Source of the DNA: a virus
DNA length: 28,200 nt
Strand: one strand, 5' to 3'
Virus record (IMG/VR): IMGVR_UViG_3300029265_000369
Span: 1-28,200 of that record
The position numbers and the translations under genes are program-made. The notes below the pieces were generated by a model. That model did no database searches, was not told the origin of the DNA, and worked only from the letters and a program-made list of their open reading frames with translations. Below are positions 4,274 through 11,433 of the stretch, in pieces (position 1 is the stretch's first letter; every line of letters starts with the position of its first letter).

Positions 4274-4684
4274 TTACTTAGCTCTCCATAACTTCAAGCC
4301 CACTGCTGCGAATACCACGGCGGTCATCATTTCACCCATGTCTACGCCGGCTTCGTTCAAAGCACGTATGCCTTCAACAGTTCCAGTAAGTAAACGGGCA
4401 TCACCGGCATAGGCCAGCCAAACAGCACCGGCCAATATCCCAACAACGGGTAGAGTTATGATTATGGTTACATATTCATCTTTCCATGAACTGTCTTGGT
4501 TGGCTGCGTTAATAGCCTCCCACTCAGCATCGGAAAGGGTTATTTGCGTTTCGTTAGAGAGTTTAGCCTGGCTAAGTTTGGCCCTGCCTGTCTCTTTGGC
4601 TTGCTTGCGATCTTGGTTCTTCGTGTACATAGATGACAGCGGCTTGACCACTGCACCTAATACTTTACTTATCAACCCCAGCAT
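4274..4684 (-). CDS. Holin-like membrane protein (GTA_holin_3TM type)
   Basis: A 136-residue protein resembling the three-segment holins first described in gene transfer agents. It has an amphipathic N-terminus (1-18), a polar linker, the characteristic SWKDEY motif at 66-71, a membrane segment at about 72-93 and another at about 118-132, ending in KLWRAK. Such holins open the inner membrane at the end of infection. The start overlaps the stop of the upstream gene (TAATG). It is followed directly by the XhlA-like gene, making a compact lysis pair. No endolysin gene is adjacent. Confidence 0.65.
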   Translation of the reverse strand: MLGLISKVLGAVVKPLSSMYTKNQDRKQAKETGRAKLSQAKLSNETQITLSDAEWEAINAANQDSSWKDEYVTIIITLPVVGILAGAVWLAYAGDARLLTGTVEGIRALNEAGVDMGEMMTAVVFAAVGLKLWRAK

Positions 4685-5487
4685 TAGAATAGCCCGTCCA
4701 TTTGTGACAACTGGGTGCGGGTGTTAGCTGTTTCTAGTTGGTCAAGTTCTTCCCAATGCTTAACATGAAGCTGGTGTTGCATACTTGCAACAAGGGCAAT
4801 CAGGTCTAAGAGCTCTAATTCATCAATGGGTTTGGTTGTACCATCTGCTGCCCTTACTACATCACCGCCAGCTAATAGTGTGGTGTGCAGTATGCCTAAG
4901 CACTCAGCAGAGCAAGTAATGGCAAAGCCCAGTGCTGTTTCTACTAGCCATTTGGTCTTTAGTGCCTTGTCTCGGCGCGCAATACTCTTGTTTATGTAGT
5001 AATTACGGGCTGTTTGAACGTCTGTACCTTTGCCATCACGGGGTTTATTGGGCAGAGAAATCAGGAAAGGGTCGGTGCTTTGGTCGGTTAAATCACGCAA
5101 TTGTTGCCGGTATTCCTCCCATTCACCCTTTTGTAGGACTCTATCTGACTGTATTTGCCCATCCGATTCATCCAACAGCTCGTTACGTCGCTCTCTTAGT
5201 GAGTCCCAGCGCCGGCTTATGCGGGCATCAACGTCACCTTGATAGTCAACCAGTGTTGGCTTGCGTACATAAACGCCCTCTTCTTCCACAACATAGTAGG
5301 TGTAGATTTTGTCGGCGGTGTGCGGTACAAACTCAGTGGCCTGTGGTGCTTCTAGTGGTGTGTAACCAAAAGAGGCAAGGTTGGCTGCCGTTAATACAGC
5401 AGGCAAGTTGGTGTCACTGAGTTGTTCACGCAATTTATCTTCTGTTATCAGATTAGTAAAACCATCCGATACTTTTCCATATAGCAT
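4684..5487 (-). CDS. Tail fibre-associated protein with chaperone-like domain
   Basis: A 267-residue protein. Residues about 91-148 (RRWDSLRERRNELLDESD, then GEWEEYRQQLRDLTDQ and a proline-rich end) match the phage tail assembly chaperone motif found in many fibre-associated proteins. The N-terminal 80 residues begin with LYGKVSDGFTNLI and contain a possible beta-rich domain. The C-terminal half (150-267) is helical and unrecognised. The ribosome-binding site AAGGA lies six bases upstream. It probably helps assemble or cap a tail fibre encoded upstream, like the comparable protein at 8702-9250. Confidence 0.55.
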   Translation of the reverse strand: MLYGKVSDGFTNLITEDKLREQLSDTNLPAVLTAANLASFGYTPLEAPQATEFVPHTADKIYTYYVVEEEGVYVRKPTLVDYQGDVDARISRRWDSLRERRNELLDESDGQIQSDRVLQKGEWEEYRQQLRDLTDQSTDPFLISLPNKPRDGKGTDVQTARNYYINKSIARRDKALKTKWLVETALGFAITCSAECLGILHTTLLAGGDVVRAADGTTKPIDELELLDLIALVASMQHQLHVKHWEELDQLETANTRTQLSQMDGLF

Positions 5488-5501: not shown

Positions 5502-6353
5502 TTATCGGGTGGTGGCTTGGGCCATTGGCTTGTGCAACTCACGCAGATTAGTAATATTGGTGTAAAAGGCTTCCGTTCGTTCTTCTATGTCATCCATCCA
5601 AGGGAACAACAGGCCTGAGCTTTTGCAAGCTATCATGTTGTTTAGCCGCGCTTGGCGATCACCCTTGTTCTTGGTGCCAAGTAATACCCTGTTTATGGGG
5701 AAGTAAACCGTGTCCGACTCTTTGGTGAATCTACCCACATTAACAATGGACTTCTGCCACAGTGCAGCGACAATACCCAGCTCACTGGCTGCTGTGATGT
5801 ACGCTGTTTTGGCGTTCTTGAGTACTTCCATACCACTGACATTGCGTTCTATAATTCGAGTGGCACCGTAGGTACATTGCAGCTCGCGGTACGCTTCATC
5901 ACTCATCATGGGGTGTGGTTTTATGAACGCATACTCATCGTCAAACATAAGCCTTGCGAGTATTTCAGGGTCAACTAGGTCGTTGAGGTTATCGCCCGGG
6001 GGGAACACAACATCGTCTGGGTATTCATCAACATCAAGGCTGTCCAGCACATACTTGTCACCGATTGTGTCAAAGAGCATTGATAAGTGTTTTTCGTCTT
6101 CATAGTTTAGCGAGGCTTTGTGCATAACCCTGGTATTTATCTCTAAGTTTTGAGACTTGAGGTAAACACCGCCAAGCACTTCTGTATAAGAACACTCGGT
6201 AAAGTTTACGGGCTGGGTGCAATTGACATCGTAGCTTGTTGGGTAGTGCGCTAGATCTATTATTTGGCTTTCTATTTCTTCAATCCAGTTGTTGCGTTCG
6301 CTGCGTGCAATGTTGCCAATGTCACGGTCAGCGATAGTCGTTCCTTCAATCAT
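5502..6353 (-). CDS. Protein with glycosyltransferase-like (capsule polysaccharide type) motifs
   Basis: A 283-residue protein with AAGGAGA before the start. Residues 145-148 read KPHP, followed 42 residues later by SELGIVAALWQKSIVNVG (from Ser190). This pair resembles the nucleotide-sugar binding half of GT-B glycosyltransferases of the capsule polysaccharide (KpsC/KpsS) group, where a KPHP motif precedes a Ser/Thr-x-x-Gly-x-x-Ala-Leu segment and a Val-x-Gly turn. The N-terminal 130 residues are not recognised, and the protein is short for a two-domain enzyme. It lies among tail fibre genes, beside a threonine-rich protein that could be a substrate. A structural fibre protein that only resembles the fold is the alternative. 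Confidence 0.4.
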   Translation of the reverse strand: MIEGTTIADRDIGNIARSERNNWIEEIESQIIDLAHYPTSYDVNCTQPVNFTECSYTEVLGGVYLKSQNLEINTRVMHKASLNYEDEKHLSMLFDTIGDKYVLDSLDVDEYPDDVVFPPGDNLNDLVDPEILARLMFDDEYAFIKPHPMMSDEAYRELQCTYGATRIIERNVSGMEVLKNAKTAYITAASELGIVAALWQKSIVNVGRFTKESDTVYFPINRVLLGTKNKGDRQARLNNMIACKSSGLLFPWMDDIEERTEAFYTNITNLRELHKPMAQATTR

Positions 6354-6370: not shown

Positions 6371-6868
6371 TTATATAAGCGTTTCCCTTACCGTGTTTCT
6401 GTACACTTGGGTAGGCTTTGATGTTTGCTTTTCGGTTGGTCTTGATGTGTTGCGACTCGATAAGCGCAGCGTTTGATGGTAGGTGTACTTACTGGTTGGG
6501 TTGCTCGTTGCGTTTGTTGTGTTGCCCGAGTAACAAGTCAAGTAGATACCTTGAGCTGGGTCGCCTGTGTTTCGTGTAAAGGTGTCGCTATAGCAGACGT
6601 TATTGGTTACCCACCACCCTGTTTTTGACTCGCCTTCTGACAACCAGTAGAGGCCTGAAGACCCTGCTGTGAAAAAGGTAGTGTCGTAGGAGGTGGGCTT
6701 TTGTGTTGTGTACCATGTGTTGTAAGACACCAAGGCATTTGTGGAAAACGAGGTAGTTGCCTCCGTACCCACAAGGGTGTTGGCACTGCTCTCTAATGTG
6801 TTCACATCCGTATTTCTTGTGCGTGGTGCGCCGCCTGTTGCTGCCAGCCTAAACTTCTTTAGATTCAT
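6371..6868 (-). CDS. Threonine/serine/asparagine-rich tail fibre-region protein
   Basis: A 165-residue protein with 34 threonines, about one residue in five, and many Ser and Asn. It begins MNLKKFRLAATGGAPRTRNT and has an aromatic-rich middle (GLYWLSEGESKTGWWVTNN). The C-terminal 60 residues carry dense NT, TS and ST dipeptides. The start overlaps the preceding stop by four bases (ATGA). No family is recognised. Composition and position suggest a surface-exposed fibre tip or decoration. The adjacent glycosyltransferase-like gene makes modification conceivable, but this is speculation. Confidence 0.55.
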   Translation of the reverse strand: MNLKKFRLAATGGAPRTRNTDVNTLESSANTLVGTEATTSFSTNALVSYNTWYTTQKPTSYDTTFFTAGSSGLYWLSEGESKTGWWVTNNVCYSDTFTRNTGDPAQGIYLTCYSGNTTNATSNPTSKYTYHQTLRLSSRNTSRPTEKQTSKPTQVYRNTVRETLI

Positions 6869-7401
6869 CGAATCACCTTGCCGTAGAACGTCACTCCATC
6901 TGGCGTCCAGATTATTGCCCAGTCACTTCCGCTGGTTTGCAGCTCCACACCAGCAGTTAATAGGTTGGTGTTAGTGCTGCCATCAGGCGACACCCAATTA
7001 ACAACAGGCGACCATGTAGTTGCCCACGCCCCGCCATCAACCAACTCTATTAGGAACGAAGACTCCCGCCCATTGCTGGCATTAGTAATTACCGGCGACC
7101 AATTGGCTGTGTATGTGTGCTTAAATCCGTTGCTTATGGCCAAGTCAATACTGGTTCCGGTAAGGACTACGACAGTAGTACCTACATCAACCACATCTTG
7201 CATGGTGCTGCCACCGGCTCGCCGTACAAACTTTGCATCGTTCTCGGCATCTGACCCACCCACTTCTACAACAGCGCCATTGTCTTTCTTGATGAACATC
7301 TGCCCACCAATCGTGTTTATTGCTATCTCCCCCAATACCAAATCCGCAGCAGCAGGTACAGCATTGAGAGTAGCACTGCGTTTATGTTTAATTTCTATCA
7401 A
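6865..7401 (-). CDS. Short tail fibre protein
   Basis: A 178-residue protein. The N-terminus (KHKRSATLNAVPAAADLVLG, then EIAINTIGGQMFIKKDNGAV) is the widespread phage fibre N-terminal repeat in which a LxLGEIAINT strand is followed by a GQ/K-LF(I)K turn. The C-terminal part (TWSPVVNWVSPDGSTN to WIIWTPDGVTFYGKVIR-like end) resembles the C-terminal beta domain also seen at the end of the 10150-11433 fibre. The start codon is TTG at 7401, supported by AAGGAG seven to eight bases upstream. It is probably a receptor-binding or fibre tip component. Confidence 0.65.
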   Translation of the reverse strand: MIEIKHKRSATLNAVPAAADLVLGEIAINTIGGQMFIKKDNGAVVEVGGSDAENDAKFVRRAGGSTMQDVVDVGTTVVVLTGTSIDLAISNGFKHTYTANWSPVITNASNGRESSFLIELVDGGAWATTWSPVVNWVSPDGSTNTNLLTAGVELQTSGSDWAIIWTPDGVTFYGKVIR

Positions 7402-7424: not shown

Positions 7425-8438
7425 TTAACTTGTGTAACTTCCGTCGTTGAGGAACATCATAACGGTGTCATCTCCAACAACAGTTACTATTGGGTTTCCG
7501 GTGTGTGTACCTGTGTAGTTTGTGGTTTTTACTCTTAGGATAACTGTACCTTTTCCGCCTTTTCCGCCACGCCCTGGGTTGAAGGCACCACCTCCTCCAC
7601 CACCACCAGTATAATCACCGGCATATGCACCAGTATATCGGCCAGCGCTTGCGGGCAGTGCGTCAAAGCCATTGTTGTACCCTGTGCCGCCACTTGTTGC
7701 AGCGCCGGTTCCGCTTCTGCCGCCGCCTCCACCACCTTCGCCACCATTTCCCGCGCCGTGATTAGAGTACGTACCACCACCACCGCCGCCAGCCCAGTAC
7801 AAGTCGTAACCCAGTATGTCCGATAGGATGCCGTTTCCACCACTACCGGATTGCGTGCCAATGCCATTTCCTCCCAGTTGGTTAGACCCGCCGCCGCCAC
7901 CCGATACATAATTACTGCTGCTACTTGAGCCACCCCTAAATCCCTCGTTGACTCTGCCGATGTTCCCAACGTGAACACCACTATTTCCTCCGCCACGGCC
8001 ACCACCCGAGCCGTAGTTGCCATTATCGGGGGCCATCACGTTCCGATAGCAACCCCCACCACCACCACCATTGGAGGTAGCTATGTCATTTTGTGATGTA
8101 TACAAGCGTGAAGGGCCACCCTGGACGCCATGCGCTCTGTTGTTGCCGCCGCTCCCTCCTACGCCAACACTGATTAAGTAGTGCGTGCCTATGGGTATAG
8201 AAGGTTCTGGGTTTGCACCGCCACCGGAATCAGTACCCCAAGAAGTTCTAAGGCCACCAGCTCCACCGCCGCCGCCCATTCTTCCTCCGCCTTGCCCACC
8301 ACCACCAATAACTAGGTAGTCCATAGATGGTGCTGCGTAAGTGAATATCTCTACACCGTCTAAGATGATGGCAGACACAGTACTACCGTCTAAGGTGACA
8401 TCGGTTACGCCTGCCATATCTATAATTTGATCGGGCAT
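7425..8438 (-). CDS. Glycine-rich tail fibre adhesin 1
   Basis: A 337-residue protein. The first 40 residues form a small beta domain (VTDVTLDGSTVSAIILDGVE), then DYLVIGGGGQGGGRMGGGGG opens a long glycine-rich region (about 45-300) with many runs of four to seven Gly. It closes with KGTVILRVK and a short beta tail. This resembles the glycine-rich receptor-binding domains of phage adhesins such as T-even gp38, built from packed polyglycine II helices whose loops determine host range. The start has AGGTGA upstream. The high GC of the glycine codons creates long meaningless antisense frames. Confidence 0.75.
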   Translation of the reverse strand: MPDQIIDMAGVTDVTLDGSTVSAIILDGVEIFTYAAPSMDYLVIGGGGQGGGRMGGGGGAGGLRTSWGTDSGGGANPEPSIPIGTHYLISVGVGGSGGNNRAHGVQGGPSRLYTSQNDIATSNGGGGGGCYRNVMAPDNGNYGSGGGRGGGNSGVHVGNIGRVNEGFRGGSSSSSNYVSGGGGGSNQLGGNGIGTQSGSGGNGILSDILGYDLYWAGGGGGGTYSNHGAGNGGEGGGGGGRSGTGAATSGGTGYNNGFDALPASAGRYTGAYAGDYTGGGGGGGAFNPGRGGKGGKGTVILRVKTTNYTGTHTGNPIVTVVGDDTVMMFLNDGSYTS

Positions 8439-9259: not shown

Positions 9260-10150
9260 TTATATTTTCGTTATTGTGCAAGTGCCTACGTTGTAGCTAT
9301 ATTGGTCGTTTGATTGGCTTGTGCCTGCGTTGTAGCAGTTACCGCCTGTTGCCCCGGGTGCCCTGCCGCTGTTGCTACCGCCATTTCCACCCGTCGCACC
9401 GCCACCGCCACCGCCACCAGAGAACCCACCGCCACCACCGCCGCCGTAGCCACCGTATCCAGCCCCGTTGTGGCCAGTGCCACCCAAGTTGTCGTACCTA
9501 ATGGCCTCTCCCGGATTACCATACCCAGAACCGCTGCCGTTATGGAAGGCTCCACCGCCGCCGTTACCACCTGTACTGCTATTGGCTTCGCCACCACTCC
9601 CATCACCCTGCTCTGATGATGCGTGTCCACCATCTACCGGGGGAGTTCTGTAGTGTGTGCCACCACCGCCGCCACCGGCTATTATTAGTATGTCGGAGGT
9701 TCCACTAAAGCCTTCTTTGCAGACAGATGATGCCCCTCCCCCACCCGCTTGTCCGTATTGACTGTTACCGCCATTACCGCCTTGCTTGGCTACAACTATC
9801 TCTAGCTTCTGCCCTTTTAGTAATGCAAAGTTGCCCTCTATTTTCCTGCCGTAGCCGCCGGTGGCGTAGCCAGTGAGTCCGTAGTTGTTCTTGCCTGCTC
9901 CGGAACAACCAGCACAAATAATTCTGTAGGTGCCATCAGCCGGCACAGTCCACAGTTGCTTACCTTCCACAACAGTAAACATGCCGGTATCAACCAGCCA
10001 CGGGTTTGCGCTTGTGTCGTAGTTGGCTATCAAGTCTGAGTACGTTGGCGCGGCGATGCCTTGCACTTCAGACCCAGAGTTGAACTGGAATGTGGTGAAG
10101 TCATACAGGTCACCGCCACTCGATACTGCTAATAATTTTCTTGATAGCAT
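9260..10150 (-). CDS. Glycine-rich tail fibre adhesin 2
   Basis: A 296-residue protein. Residues about 60-85 (LWTVPADGTYRIICAGCSGA) followed by a Gly-rich segment, LLKGQKLEIVVAKQGGNGGN and DILIIAGGGGGG match the layout of the glycine-rich domain family also seen in ALK/LTK receptors (PF12810 type). It then has about 100 residues of Gly-rich sequence with Ser, Asn, Tyr and His loops and ends with YNVGTCTITKI. The start overlaps the upstream stop (TAATG). It is a second, unrelated-looking adhesin of the same design as 7425-8438 and probably contacts the host surface. Confidence 0.75.
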   Translation of the reverse strand: MLSRKLLAVSSGGDLYDFTTFQFNSGSEVQGIAAPTYSDLIANYDTSANPWLVDTGMFTVVEGKQLWTVPADGTYRIICAGCSGAGKNNYGLTGYATGGYGRKIEGNFALLKGQKLEIVVAKQGGNGGNSQYGQAGGGGASSVCKEGFSGTSDILIIAGGGGGGTHYRTPPVDGGHASSEQGDGSGGEANSSTGGNGGGGAFHNGSGSGYGNPGEAIRYDNLGGTGHNGAGYGGYGGGGGGGFSGGGGGGGATGGNGGSNSGRAPGATGGNCYNAGTSQSNDQYSYNVGTCTITKI

Positions 10151-11433
10151 TACGCATCCCCTACCCTAGAGCCAAATAAATCGCCTGCCACTTTCCACAA
10201 AACGACAAAGGTAGGTTCTGTCGCGTTAAGTGTGGGCGCAACCCCACCCTCTGTTTTCCAATTGACAGATGGCCATGTCACTGAATAATCAGAACCGTCA
10301 TCTATCATTAAGGTGATGCTGGTGTTGTCGGCAAAACTGTCGGTAGGTGTGCTGTTGTTTGTAAGCACCCAGCTTTGTAAGGTTCCAGCAGTTGCACTTA
10401 GCGCCGGGGTGACACCTGTGATTGCAGCGTAGCCTTCTGTTAATGAGCCAACAAAGACTGCATTGGTTTTTAGAGCTCTTAGTTCATCTTGCGCATCCAC
10501 ATAGGTCACATCGGCTTTTAGATCCGTACCTACCACAGCAGCACTTATCTGAACCCAAGAGGAAGATTGTTGCTGGTATAGCACCTCATCGTCTGTGTCT
10601 AACCAAAATGTACCGTCCGGTTTTTCTGTTGGTGCTGTGGTGCCAGAAAAGAACTGTGTACCTACGGCACCGGGAACGGGTACTTCCCAGATGTACGTAC
10701 CGGCTATTGCACTAGAGGTAAGCACTTTGCCCACACTGTCTGTGCCATTGGCAGGTACGTGGTTGTTGCCATCACCAGTGGGGTGTGTGTAGTTGGCAAG
10801 GCCGGCCAACTTGGTAAAATCTGATGCACTCATCTTGCCGTCAACTGAGTCTGTTGCTAAAGGTATTGTGCCTCCTGCTAGAACCAGCCAATCTGTTCCG
10901 TCAAACCGGTAGATAATATCAACATCGTCTACGCTGGCTGTCCAACCCTCTTGTGCTGCTGAGTACGTTGTGGCTAAGTCACCAAAGGTTGCAACACCCT
11001 CTTTCCAATCGAGGTCTGATACTACGCCACTGATGGCGTTGTCCACTTCATTTTTGGTGTACGTGTCTGACTGTGGCGAGTAAAAGTCACTGGCCTCTCC
11101 CGCCAGCGTAAGCGCATTAATACTGGTGTGCTGTGCAAGGTTAGCTTGCAGCGATGCAGGGCTTACTGTTTTGTCTTGATCTGTGCCTGCATTGACTTCA
11201 ACTTGCGTTGCAATCTGTATAATACCCCGGGCCAGTTTTGTTGCATCAGGGGTGCCAAGCGCATCAATAGTTGCTTTGAGCGTGGCTGGTGTTATTACTT
11301 TCTCTGCATCAATGCCTGCTAACGCTTCTTCCAGCGTAGCGAGAACTACTGCACCCTGATCTAGCTCGGATGCATCAATGGCATTAAGGTGAACGAAGTC
11401 AGCGAGTTGCCTAGATTTTGAAATGTTCGGCAT
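10150..11433 (-). CDS. Long tail fibre protein
   Basis: A 427-residue protein starting after AAGGAGG. Two copies of the common fibre repeat occur: GAVVLATLEEALAGIDAEKV and GIIQIATQVEVNAGTDQDKT, each followed by (I/V)(T/S)PA(T/S)L. Later parts are beta-rich (FWLDTDDEVLYQQQSSSWVQ, a frequent fibre motif), and the C-terminal 70 residues (DDGSDYSVTWPSVNWKTEGG, then APTLNATEPTF) form a domain common at fibre ends. It is likely a trimeric fibre linking the baseplate to adhesin 2. Confidence 0.75.
   Translation of the reverse strand: MPNISKSRQLADFVHLNAIDASELDQGAVVLATLEEALAGIDAEKVITPATLKATIDALGTPDATKLARGIIQIATQVEVNAGTDQDKTVSPASLQANLAQHTSINALTLAGEASDFYSPQSDTYTKNEVDNAISGVVSDLDWKEGVATFGDLATTYSAAQEGWTASVDDVDIIYRFDGTDWLVLAGGTIPLATDSVDGKMSASDFTKLAGLANYTHPTGDGNNHVPANGTDSVGKVLTSSAIAGTYIWEVPVPGAVGTQFFSGTTAPTEKPDGTFWLDTDDEVLYQQQSSSWVQISAAVVGTDLKADVTYVDAQDELRALKTNAVFVGSLTEGYAAITGVTPALSATAGTLQSWVLTNNSTPTDSFADNTSITLMIDDGSDYSVTWPSVNWKTEGGVAPTLNATEPTFVVLWKVAGDLFGSRVGDA

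Follow-up and report, generated by a model that had tools for sequence, protein, structure and literature searches.

What is the function of a glycosyltransferase-like protein encoded among the tail fibre genes of a phage, and on what would it act? The question is raised by an open reading frame of 283 amino acids, starting with ATG, on the minus strand of a 28,200-nucleotide viral stretch (IMG/VR record IMGVR_UViG_3300029265_000369; the whole stretch is hereafter called the window); the plus strand across the same positions, 5502-6353, is full of stops. An earlier note, made from the sequence alone, had pointed to a KPHP motif at residues 145-148 and to a segment from Ser190, had likened them to the nucleotide-sugar-binding half of the GT-B capsule enzymes KpsC and KpsS, and had placed the gene within a tail fibre cluster. 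Both motifs are present in the minus-strand frame, the second being SELGIVAALWQKSIVNVG, which begins at S190. The placement was also right, as the gene sits 3' of the fibre genes, flanked by a Thr-rich gene 17 nt upstream and, downstream, by a gene for a protein with a Phage_tail_APC domain (Table 1). The product of the latter is related (BLAST, E 1e-6) to that of a small gene between the Thr-rich gene and the transferase gene at another locus, L031. Two glycine-rich proteins of the same fibre region are perhaps polyglycine adhesins. A tail sheath is also encoded on the window contig, and sheath and RNA polymerase are nearest to those of Proteus phage Myduc and Pectobacterium phages PM1 and PP101 (Chaseviridae); the window appears to be part of the genome of a Chaseviridae-like myophage. 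In PP101 the fibre genes run into those for holin and endolysin, with no such transferase annotated between them.

Table 1. Positions of the features discussed (window coordinates unless a locus is named; residue numbers refer to the 283-amino-acid protein)
Feature	Position	Strand	Basis
Single-subunit RNA polymerase	495-2690	minus	phrog_414, E 2.7e-53
Protein with tail-fibre assembly chaperone domain (Phage_tail_APC), downstream of the transferase	4684..5487	minus	PF16778, E 7.7e-10
CMP-sugar-type GT-B glycosyltransferase-like protein	5502..6353	minus	ORF, PHROGs, AF2, VIA Z 9.9 to KpsC
SELGIVAALWQKSIVNVG, residues 190-207	5733..5786	minus	E191 in 43/43; S190 in 37/43, T in 6/43
KPHP, residues 145-148, (K/R)XHP CMP-binding motif	5910..5921	minus	K, H, P in 43/43 homologues
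PGDN, residues 119-122, in the position of the nucleophile motif QXXXD	5988..5999	minus	N122 in 43/43, G120 in 41/43
K100-Y101, opposite KpsC Lys133-Tyr134	6051..6056	minus	43/43; hhalign
D42, candidate general base, N-terminal domain	6228..6230	minus	43/43; role inferred
Thr/Ser-rich protein of 165 aa with repeats of period 4, proposed as acceptor (fibre/adhesin component)	6371..6868	minus	S+T 0.32, Thr autocorrelation
Short tail-fibre protein, encoded next to the Thr-rich gene on its upstream side	6865..7401	minus	PHROG tail fibre families, E 3e-6 and weaker
Glycine-rich protein, upstream of the short fibre gene	7425-8438	minus	PF21722, E 2.6e-8
Second glycine-rich protein, same fibre region	9260-10150	minus	PF21722, E 1.2e-4
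Desaturase-like proteins	L022:3556-4368, 10082-10837; L024:6434-7180, 10534-11319		by eye

By sequence, the likeness to capsule enzymes is faint and comes mainly from relatives of the window protein. The protein itself matched nothing in Pfam by hmmscan at E ≤ 10, PF05159 (Capsule_synth) included, and a PF05159 search of the window record gave no match. Among the PHROGs it matched phrog_26179 and phrog_30602 (E 1e-54 and 6e-16), both of unknown function, and a third match at E 0.13 is noise. PF05159 is matched by three of nine relatives (best E 6e-4) and PF07922 by one of the nine (E 5e-4); within an 18-member set, the corresponding numbers are two and one. A PDB profile search with the family returned KpsC weakly (E 0.36-1.1), one hydrolase and DJ-1 chains scoring alike, and hhalign of the family against a six-sequence KpsC alignment gave a probability of 87.6 over 125 columns. 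With the transferase as query and E ≤ 1, tblastn returned 44 records, 35 from phages of Vibrio and 9 from phages of Caulobacter, and the locus was inspected in nine of the 44; Stenotrophomonas phage DLP6 was added by tblastn with a relative as query. The carriers are diverse in host and phage type, comprising Autographiviridae (Lullwater, BL198), Straboviridae (KVP40), Cr30, and DLP6. Further loci were obtained from IMG/VR, where six of seven protein scans were productive and the first viral scan, with a single protein as query, found nothing. Two scans of cellular-genome contigs confirmed no relative, which is a weak negative as the scans require short conserved peptides.

The proposal of the earlier note would have been refuted by a predicted structure without a Rossmann-like GT-B domain or by a clear match to a fibre or chaperone family, and neither came about: such a domain was found in an AF2 model made from 18 family members (pLDDT 89.1, pTM 0.86). 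VIA-align of this model placed KpsC, WbbB, and KrkA in the best 14 of the 50 rows listed (Z 8.5-9.9 over 196-220 residues, rmsd 3.8-6.2 Å), followed by a CMP-using polysialyltransferase at Z 8.3 (5wc6) and 7.9, and then mostly by general GT-B enzymes at Z ≤ 7.6, with one extra KrkA row at 7.3. No other family was prominent among these 50 rows, although absence there excludes nothing. It should be noted that, even when nothing matches clearly, the best Z commonly reaches 7 to 8, and that 9-10 is not far above. Foldseek ranked a UDP-GlcNAc 2-epimerase first (E 5.7e-4) and KpsC third (E 1.7e-3), with TM-scores to KpsC of merely 0.33-0.40. In the predicted structure, the nearest fold is that of the CMP-Kdo GT-B transferases, and activity is only inferred from it. 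An ordinary fibre or chaperone protein was considered and rejected in view of the PHROGs matches of unknown function only, the lack of a Pfam match, and the GT-B model.

The motifs do not owe their resemblance to chance, since K145, H147, P148, and E191 are kept in 43/43 aligned homologues although family members are only about 18-40% identical to the window protein. D42, K100, Y101, N122, and G247 are equally invariant in this alignment, which was chosen by hand and from which most clones and truncated sequences were left out (L023, L082-L084, and L050 among them). Judged by sequence, the nine residues look like the active site of a CMP-sugar enzyme. According to PMC12887879 and PMC10148158, two motifs are common to the retaining Kdo transferases: (K/R)XHP for CMP, with Ser for K/R in KrkA, and QXXXD, which bears the nucleophilic Asp; the donor site of KpsC is described in PMC10148158 as including Lys133 and Tyr134. 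By hhalign, K100-Y101 fall on 'SKYN' of the KpsC alignment and the E191/SELGIVAALWQKSIVNVG segment falls against TS..GFEALL of KpsC, while residue 124, which is set opposite KpsC Asp160, is not conserved (L in 25/43). At the place of QXXXD the 43 homologues have G120-x-N122 and no conserved Asp or Glu. D42 directly follows strand 39-41 of the AF2 model.

Membership of the retaining Kdo families GT99, GT107, and GT140 was rejected because the nucleophilic Asp of QXXXD is missing. The phage protein shares with the retaining β-Kdo transferases KpsC (GT107), WbbB (GT99), and KrkA (GT140) the GT-B fold over about 200 residues, the (K/R)XHP motif, and a Lys-Tyr pair at the KpsC Lys133-Tyr134 position. 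It differs from them in being smaller, in having PGxN for QXXXD, in lacking, in the window, a PF05159 match, and in being encoded beside a Thr-repeat gene rather than within a capsule/LPS operon. An HP motif and the GT-B fold are also shared with the bacterial CMP-sialyltransferases and polysialyltransferases (GT38, GT52, GT80), to which 5wc6 and the PF07922 match of one relative point, but sequence similarity is low. Bacterial CMP-sialyltransferases carry D/E-D/E-G and S-S/T motifs. Loss of the Asp nucleophile of the nearest enzymes could also mean that the protein is catalytically dead, its GT-B fold now serving as a chaperone or as a lectin-type binder of the Thr-rich fibre or of a surface sugar, and it is true that the gene adjoins one for a protein resembling a fibre-assembly chaperone. 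We regard this as distinctly improbable, given that the top-conserved positions in 43 divergent homologues are mostly polar and likely form a CMP/sugar site (the His of HP, two acidic residues, and an Asn).

The neighbour upstream bears on the question of what an active enzyme would modify. The Thr-rich protein of the window has no match in PHROGs or Pfam, and its Thr residues recur with an autocorrelation of 0.34 at lag 4 (z 4.6); xTxx runs over most of both arms, and the middle is non-repeat. AF2 gave no confident fold for it (pLDDT 34.7), as would be expected, though this is not proven, for a glycan-dependent chain. When 226 ORFs of at least 100 aa from the window and the fetched loci were ranked by Ser+Thr content, the 14 richest were all partners of the transferase; those of Cr30 and L013 ranked 20 and 24. 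Across 23 partners, mean Thr autocorrelation is 0.31, 0.27, and 0.20 at lags 4, 8, and 12, and about zero or negative elsewhere. A lag-4 z above 3 was reached by 10/16 partner ORFs as against 0/175 other ORFs of those loci. For both the ranking and this comparison, L025, which is KVP40 again, was used in place of the KVP40 record. Period 4 is weak or absent in three partners (Cr30, z 0.5; L022, z 0.6; L014, z 1.9). N-glycosylation of the repeats was considered only, as NTS/NTT words occur, and was set aside because the periodic residue is Thr, not Asn. In some partners (L051:3346-4053, L052:3389-4060, and L028:2791-4068), the two repeat arms are separated by a Cys-rich segment without repeats, possibly a receptor-binding tip. 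A separate observation concerns the Thr-rich gene of Quill_5.2 as annotated (L008:2307-2861), whose C-terminus is unlike that of Lullwater and for which the tblastn match consists of two joined pieces that extend to record position 37372, as if by a frameshift or an annotation error.

The pairing of the two genes is the main observation of this study. In the discovery set, made up of the window, 9 annotated phage records, and 13 IMG/VR loci, the transferase gene is preceded at 23/23 loci by a Thr-rich repeat gene, either immediately or across one small gene. Three further scans yielded a second set of 36 previously unseen loci, six of them cut at the gene, and here a Thr-repeat gene was found upstream on the same strand at 27/30 testable loci; the partner is the third gene upstream in L051 and L052 and about three genes away in L075. 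Loci with the gene at the end of the stretch could not be tested (L023 of the first set; L050, L071, L073, L074, L077, and L083 of the second). L027 and L029 were excluded before counting as near-identical to L026 and L028, and L011, L012, L016, L018-L020, L042-L046, L053, L058, L060, L085, and L087 as copies of counted records. The 27 positives still include apparent clones (L065-L069; L070/L072/L081; L048/L049/L057; L076/L078), and the independent cases are thus fewer. In addition, the partners of L047, L075, and L014 were recognised only by eye in the reading frames, automated ORF picking having missed them or looked too near. Among the 206 other ORFs of the second-set loci, two had a Thr fraction of at least 0.18 and one a z above 3. 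A tblastn search with the Thr-rich gp41 of Lullwater returned seven records, all of Caulobacter phages that also carry the transferase, whereas the long Thr-rich protein of L031 found nothing in phages by the same method, which filters low complexity. The recurrent Thr-repeat partner of the transferase is a new result: our full-text search of the literature on phage and fibre glycosylation and on Thr-rich tail proteins did not find the pair described, but subscription papers and preprints were outside its scope and an earlier description is possible.

With DLP6 counted, the tally outside the discovery set is 27/31, the transferase being without a Thr-repeat neighbour in DLP6, L079, L080, and L084. 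The last three resemble DLP6, in which a short coiled-coil-like gene is found upstream instead; since no Thr-repeat neighbour exists there, the acceptor may differ in these four loci. If the DNA extends far enough, DLP6-type loci also encode, upstream, a large Ser/Thr-rich protein that looks Ig-like (L041:5894-8490 continued in L040:177-1655 for DLP6, L079:1-1638, and L084:669-4814), and by eye it ends in a Cys-containing segment recalling a Hint/intein-type domain.

These four loci also lend some support to the view that the pairing is a mere by-product of a shared, exchangeable fibre region, the Thr-rich protein being no acceptor. Fibre regions are mosaic, and a converse scan for a Thr period-4 DNA pattern met the transferase in 0/80 loci listed (at least 120 stretches matched), within the fetched DNA only. 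However, where the Thr runs of that scan could be read by eye, they were of other kinds (TPTP, TGNV, TNTN, etc.) than the TS-(R/aromatic)-x repeats seen in the partners; in 4 of the 80 listed loci, no open frame contained a run of at least 10. Dominated as it is by other Thr repeats, the scan says little about TS-(R/aromatic)-x repeats that lack a transferase. Moreover, the two genes keep their order and direction in phage groups that are unrelated, the KVP40-like phages among them, in which the pair lies amid nucleotide-metabolism genes and outside any annotated tail cluster. A mere by-product seems rather improbable to us. QueC-like, nicotinamide phosphoribosyltransferase, and radical-SAM genes were seen near the pair in the KVP40-like L004, L005, L007, and L009, and the gene next to the pair in KVP40 is phrog_30897. 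On two large phage contigs, proteins resembling membrane fatty-acid desaturases, with GYHR or a similar motif by eye, are encoded close to the pair (Table 1).

The position in KVP40-like phages can also be taken to favour a third alternative, namely that the transferase alters a polysaccharide or lipid of the host surface (LPS, capsule) during infection, for superinfection exclusion or progeny release, its proximity to fibre genes then reflecting co-selection with receptor recognition. The nearest folds build LPS or capsule, and phages do alter O-antigens, as described in PMC11990801. We nevertheless hold this alternative to be unlikely, because the transferase follows a Thr-repeat gene in nearly all testable loci of unrelated phages and because in Lullwater it lies between the fibre and the holin/terminase genes. 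O-antigen systems have membrane-partner genes, gtrA/gtrB. The annotated fibre gene of Lullwater encodes just 323 aa with a T7-type fibre N-terminal domain and is directly followed by the Thr-repeat gene, from which we infer that the Thr-repeat protein would suit the distal part of the fibre. The earlier note had left open whether fibres or host polysaccharides are modified or whether the fold merely binds sugar; the conserved Thr-repeat partner favours the first, and the other two are not excluded.

The explanation that we prefer, and consider somewhat probable, is that the protein is an active GT-B transferase that uses a host-made, CMP-activated ulosonic-type sugar and has the upstream Thr-repeat fibre/adhesin protein as its acceptor. 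While the ORF, the GT-B fold closest to CMP-Kdo transferases, the invariant CMP-site motif with the other invariant polar residues, and the recurrent Thr-repeat neighbourhood are shown computationally, catalysis, donor, and acceptor are inferred. The donor would be CMP-Kdo or a CMP-nonulosonate such as pseudaminic, legionaminic, or sialic acid. His147 may serve as acid towards the CMP phosphate, and Asp42 or Glu191 as base; since the Asp nucleophile of KpsC, WbbB, and KrkA is missing, the transfer would probably be a single inverting step. In inverting sialyltransferases an acidic residue of the N-domain can act as base, and it is by analogy with these mechanisms that we guess at an inverting step in which D42 is the base. 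O-linkage of the sugar to the Thr/Ser of the repeats would take place in the cytoplasm and precede assembly of the tail; the result may be a glycan-coated, mucin-like fibre segment that stiffens the fibre, protects it, or tunes host binding. No CMP-sugar synthetase (PF02348) was detected in 6/6 phage records searched (Lullwater, Cr30, KVP40, DLP6, and the L022 and L024 contigs), whereas the control search was positive in Caulobacter vibrioides and E. coli; the CMP-sugar would therefore have to come from the host. What counts against the acceptor assignment, which is itself inferred, is that gene neighbourhood does not prove an enzyme-substrate relation and that there are no virion glycan data.

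In the GspB and PsrP systems, the transferase gene lies beside the Ser/Thr-repeat gene. These Gram-positive serine-rich repeat adhesins, with GtfA/B, resemble the phage pair in combining a dedicated transferase with a Ser/Thr-repeat surface protein; in the phages, however, the transferase is of an unrelated type, there is no accessory Sec, the protein would belong to a virion and not a cell wall, and glycosylation is inferred. Freeman et al. (2023) reportedly described glycosylation of mycobacteriophage virions by phage-encoded transferases at the C-termini of capsid and tail-tube proteins. This work is cited in PMC12619734. In contrast to the mycobacteriophages, the protein concerned here is a Thr-repeat protein of the fibre region, the transferase has a different fold relative, and the phages infect Gram-negative hosts. 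A bolder proposal, for which our confidence falls just short of even, is that the two genes form a glyco-fibre module exchanged among unrelated tailed phages (Chaseviridae-like, Autographiviridae, Straboviridae, and others). Its transferase would represent a new GT family, a CMP-ulosonate transferase without the Asp nucleophile on a Kdo-transferase scaffold, that O-glycosylates tetrapeptide Thr repeats; the module would be the phage counterpart of the serine-rich-repeat adhesins, perhaps displaying host-like Kdo or pseudaminic acid on the virion.

To our knowledge, sugars on tail fibres are scarcely known outside mycobacteriophages, and it would be unusual, if true, for a Kdo-type sugar to be O-transferred directly to protein. 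Our results provide a likely function for PHROGs of unknown function, namely phrog_26179, phrog_30602, and the KVP40 partner phrog_30374. Glycosylation could explain why Thr-rich fibre proteins resemble unfoldable, low-complexity sequence and, if true, would have a bearing on host recognition and on the production of recombinant fibres. The pair can be tested in the well-studied phages Lullwater of Caulobacter and KVP40 of Vibrio, and it suggests that many unrelated phages sugar-coat part of the very fibres with which they grip their hosts.
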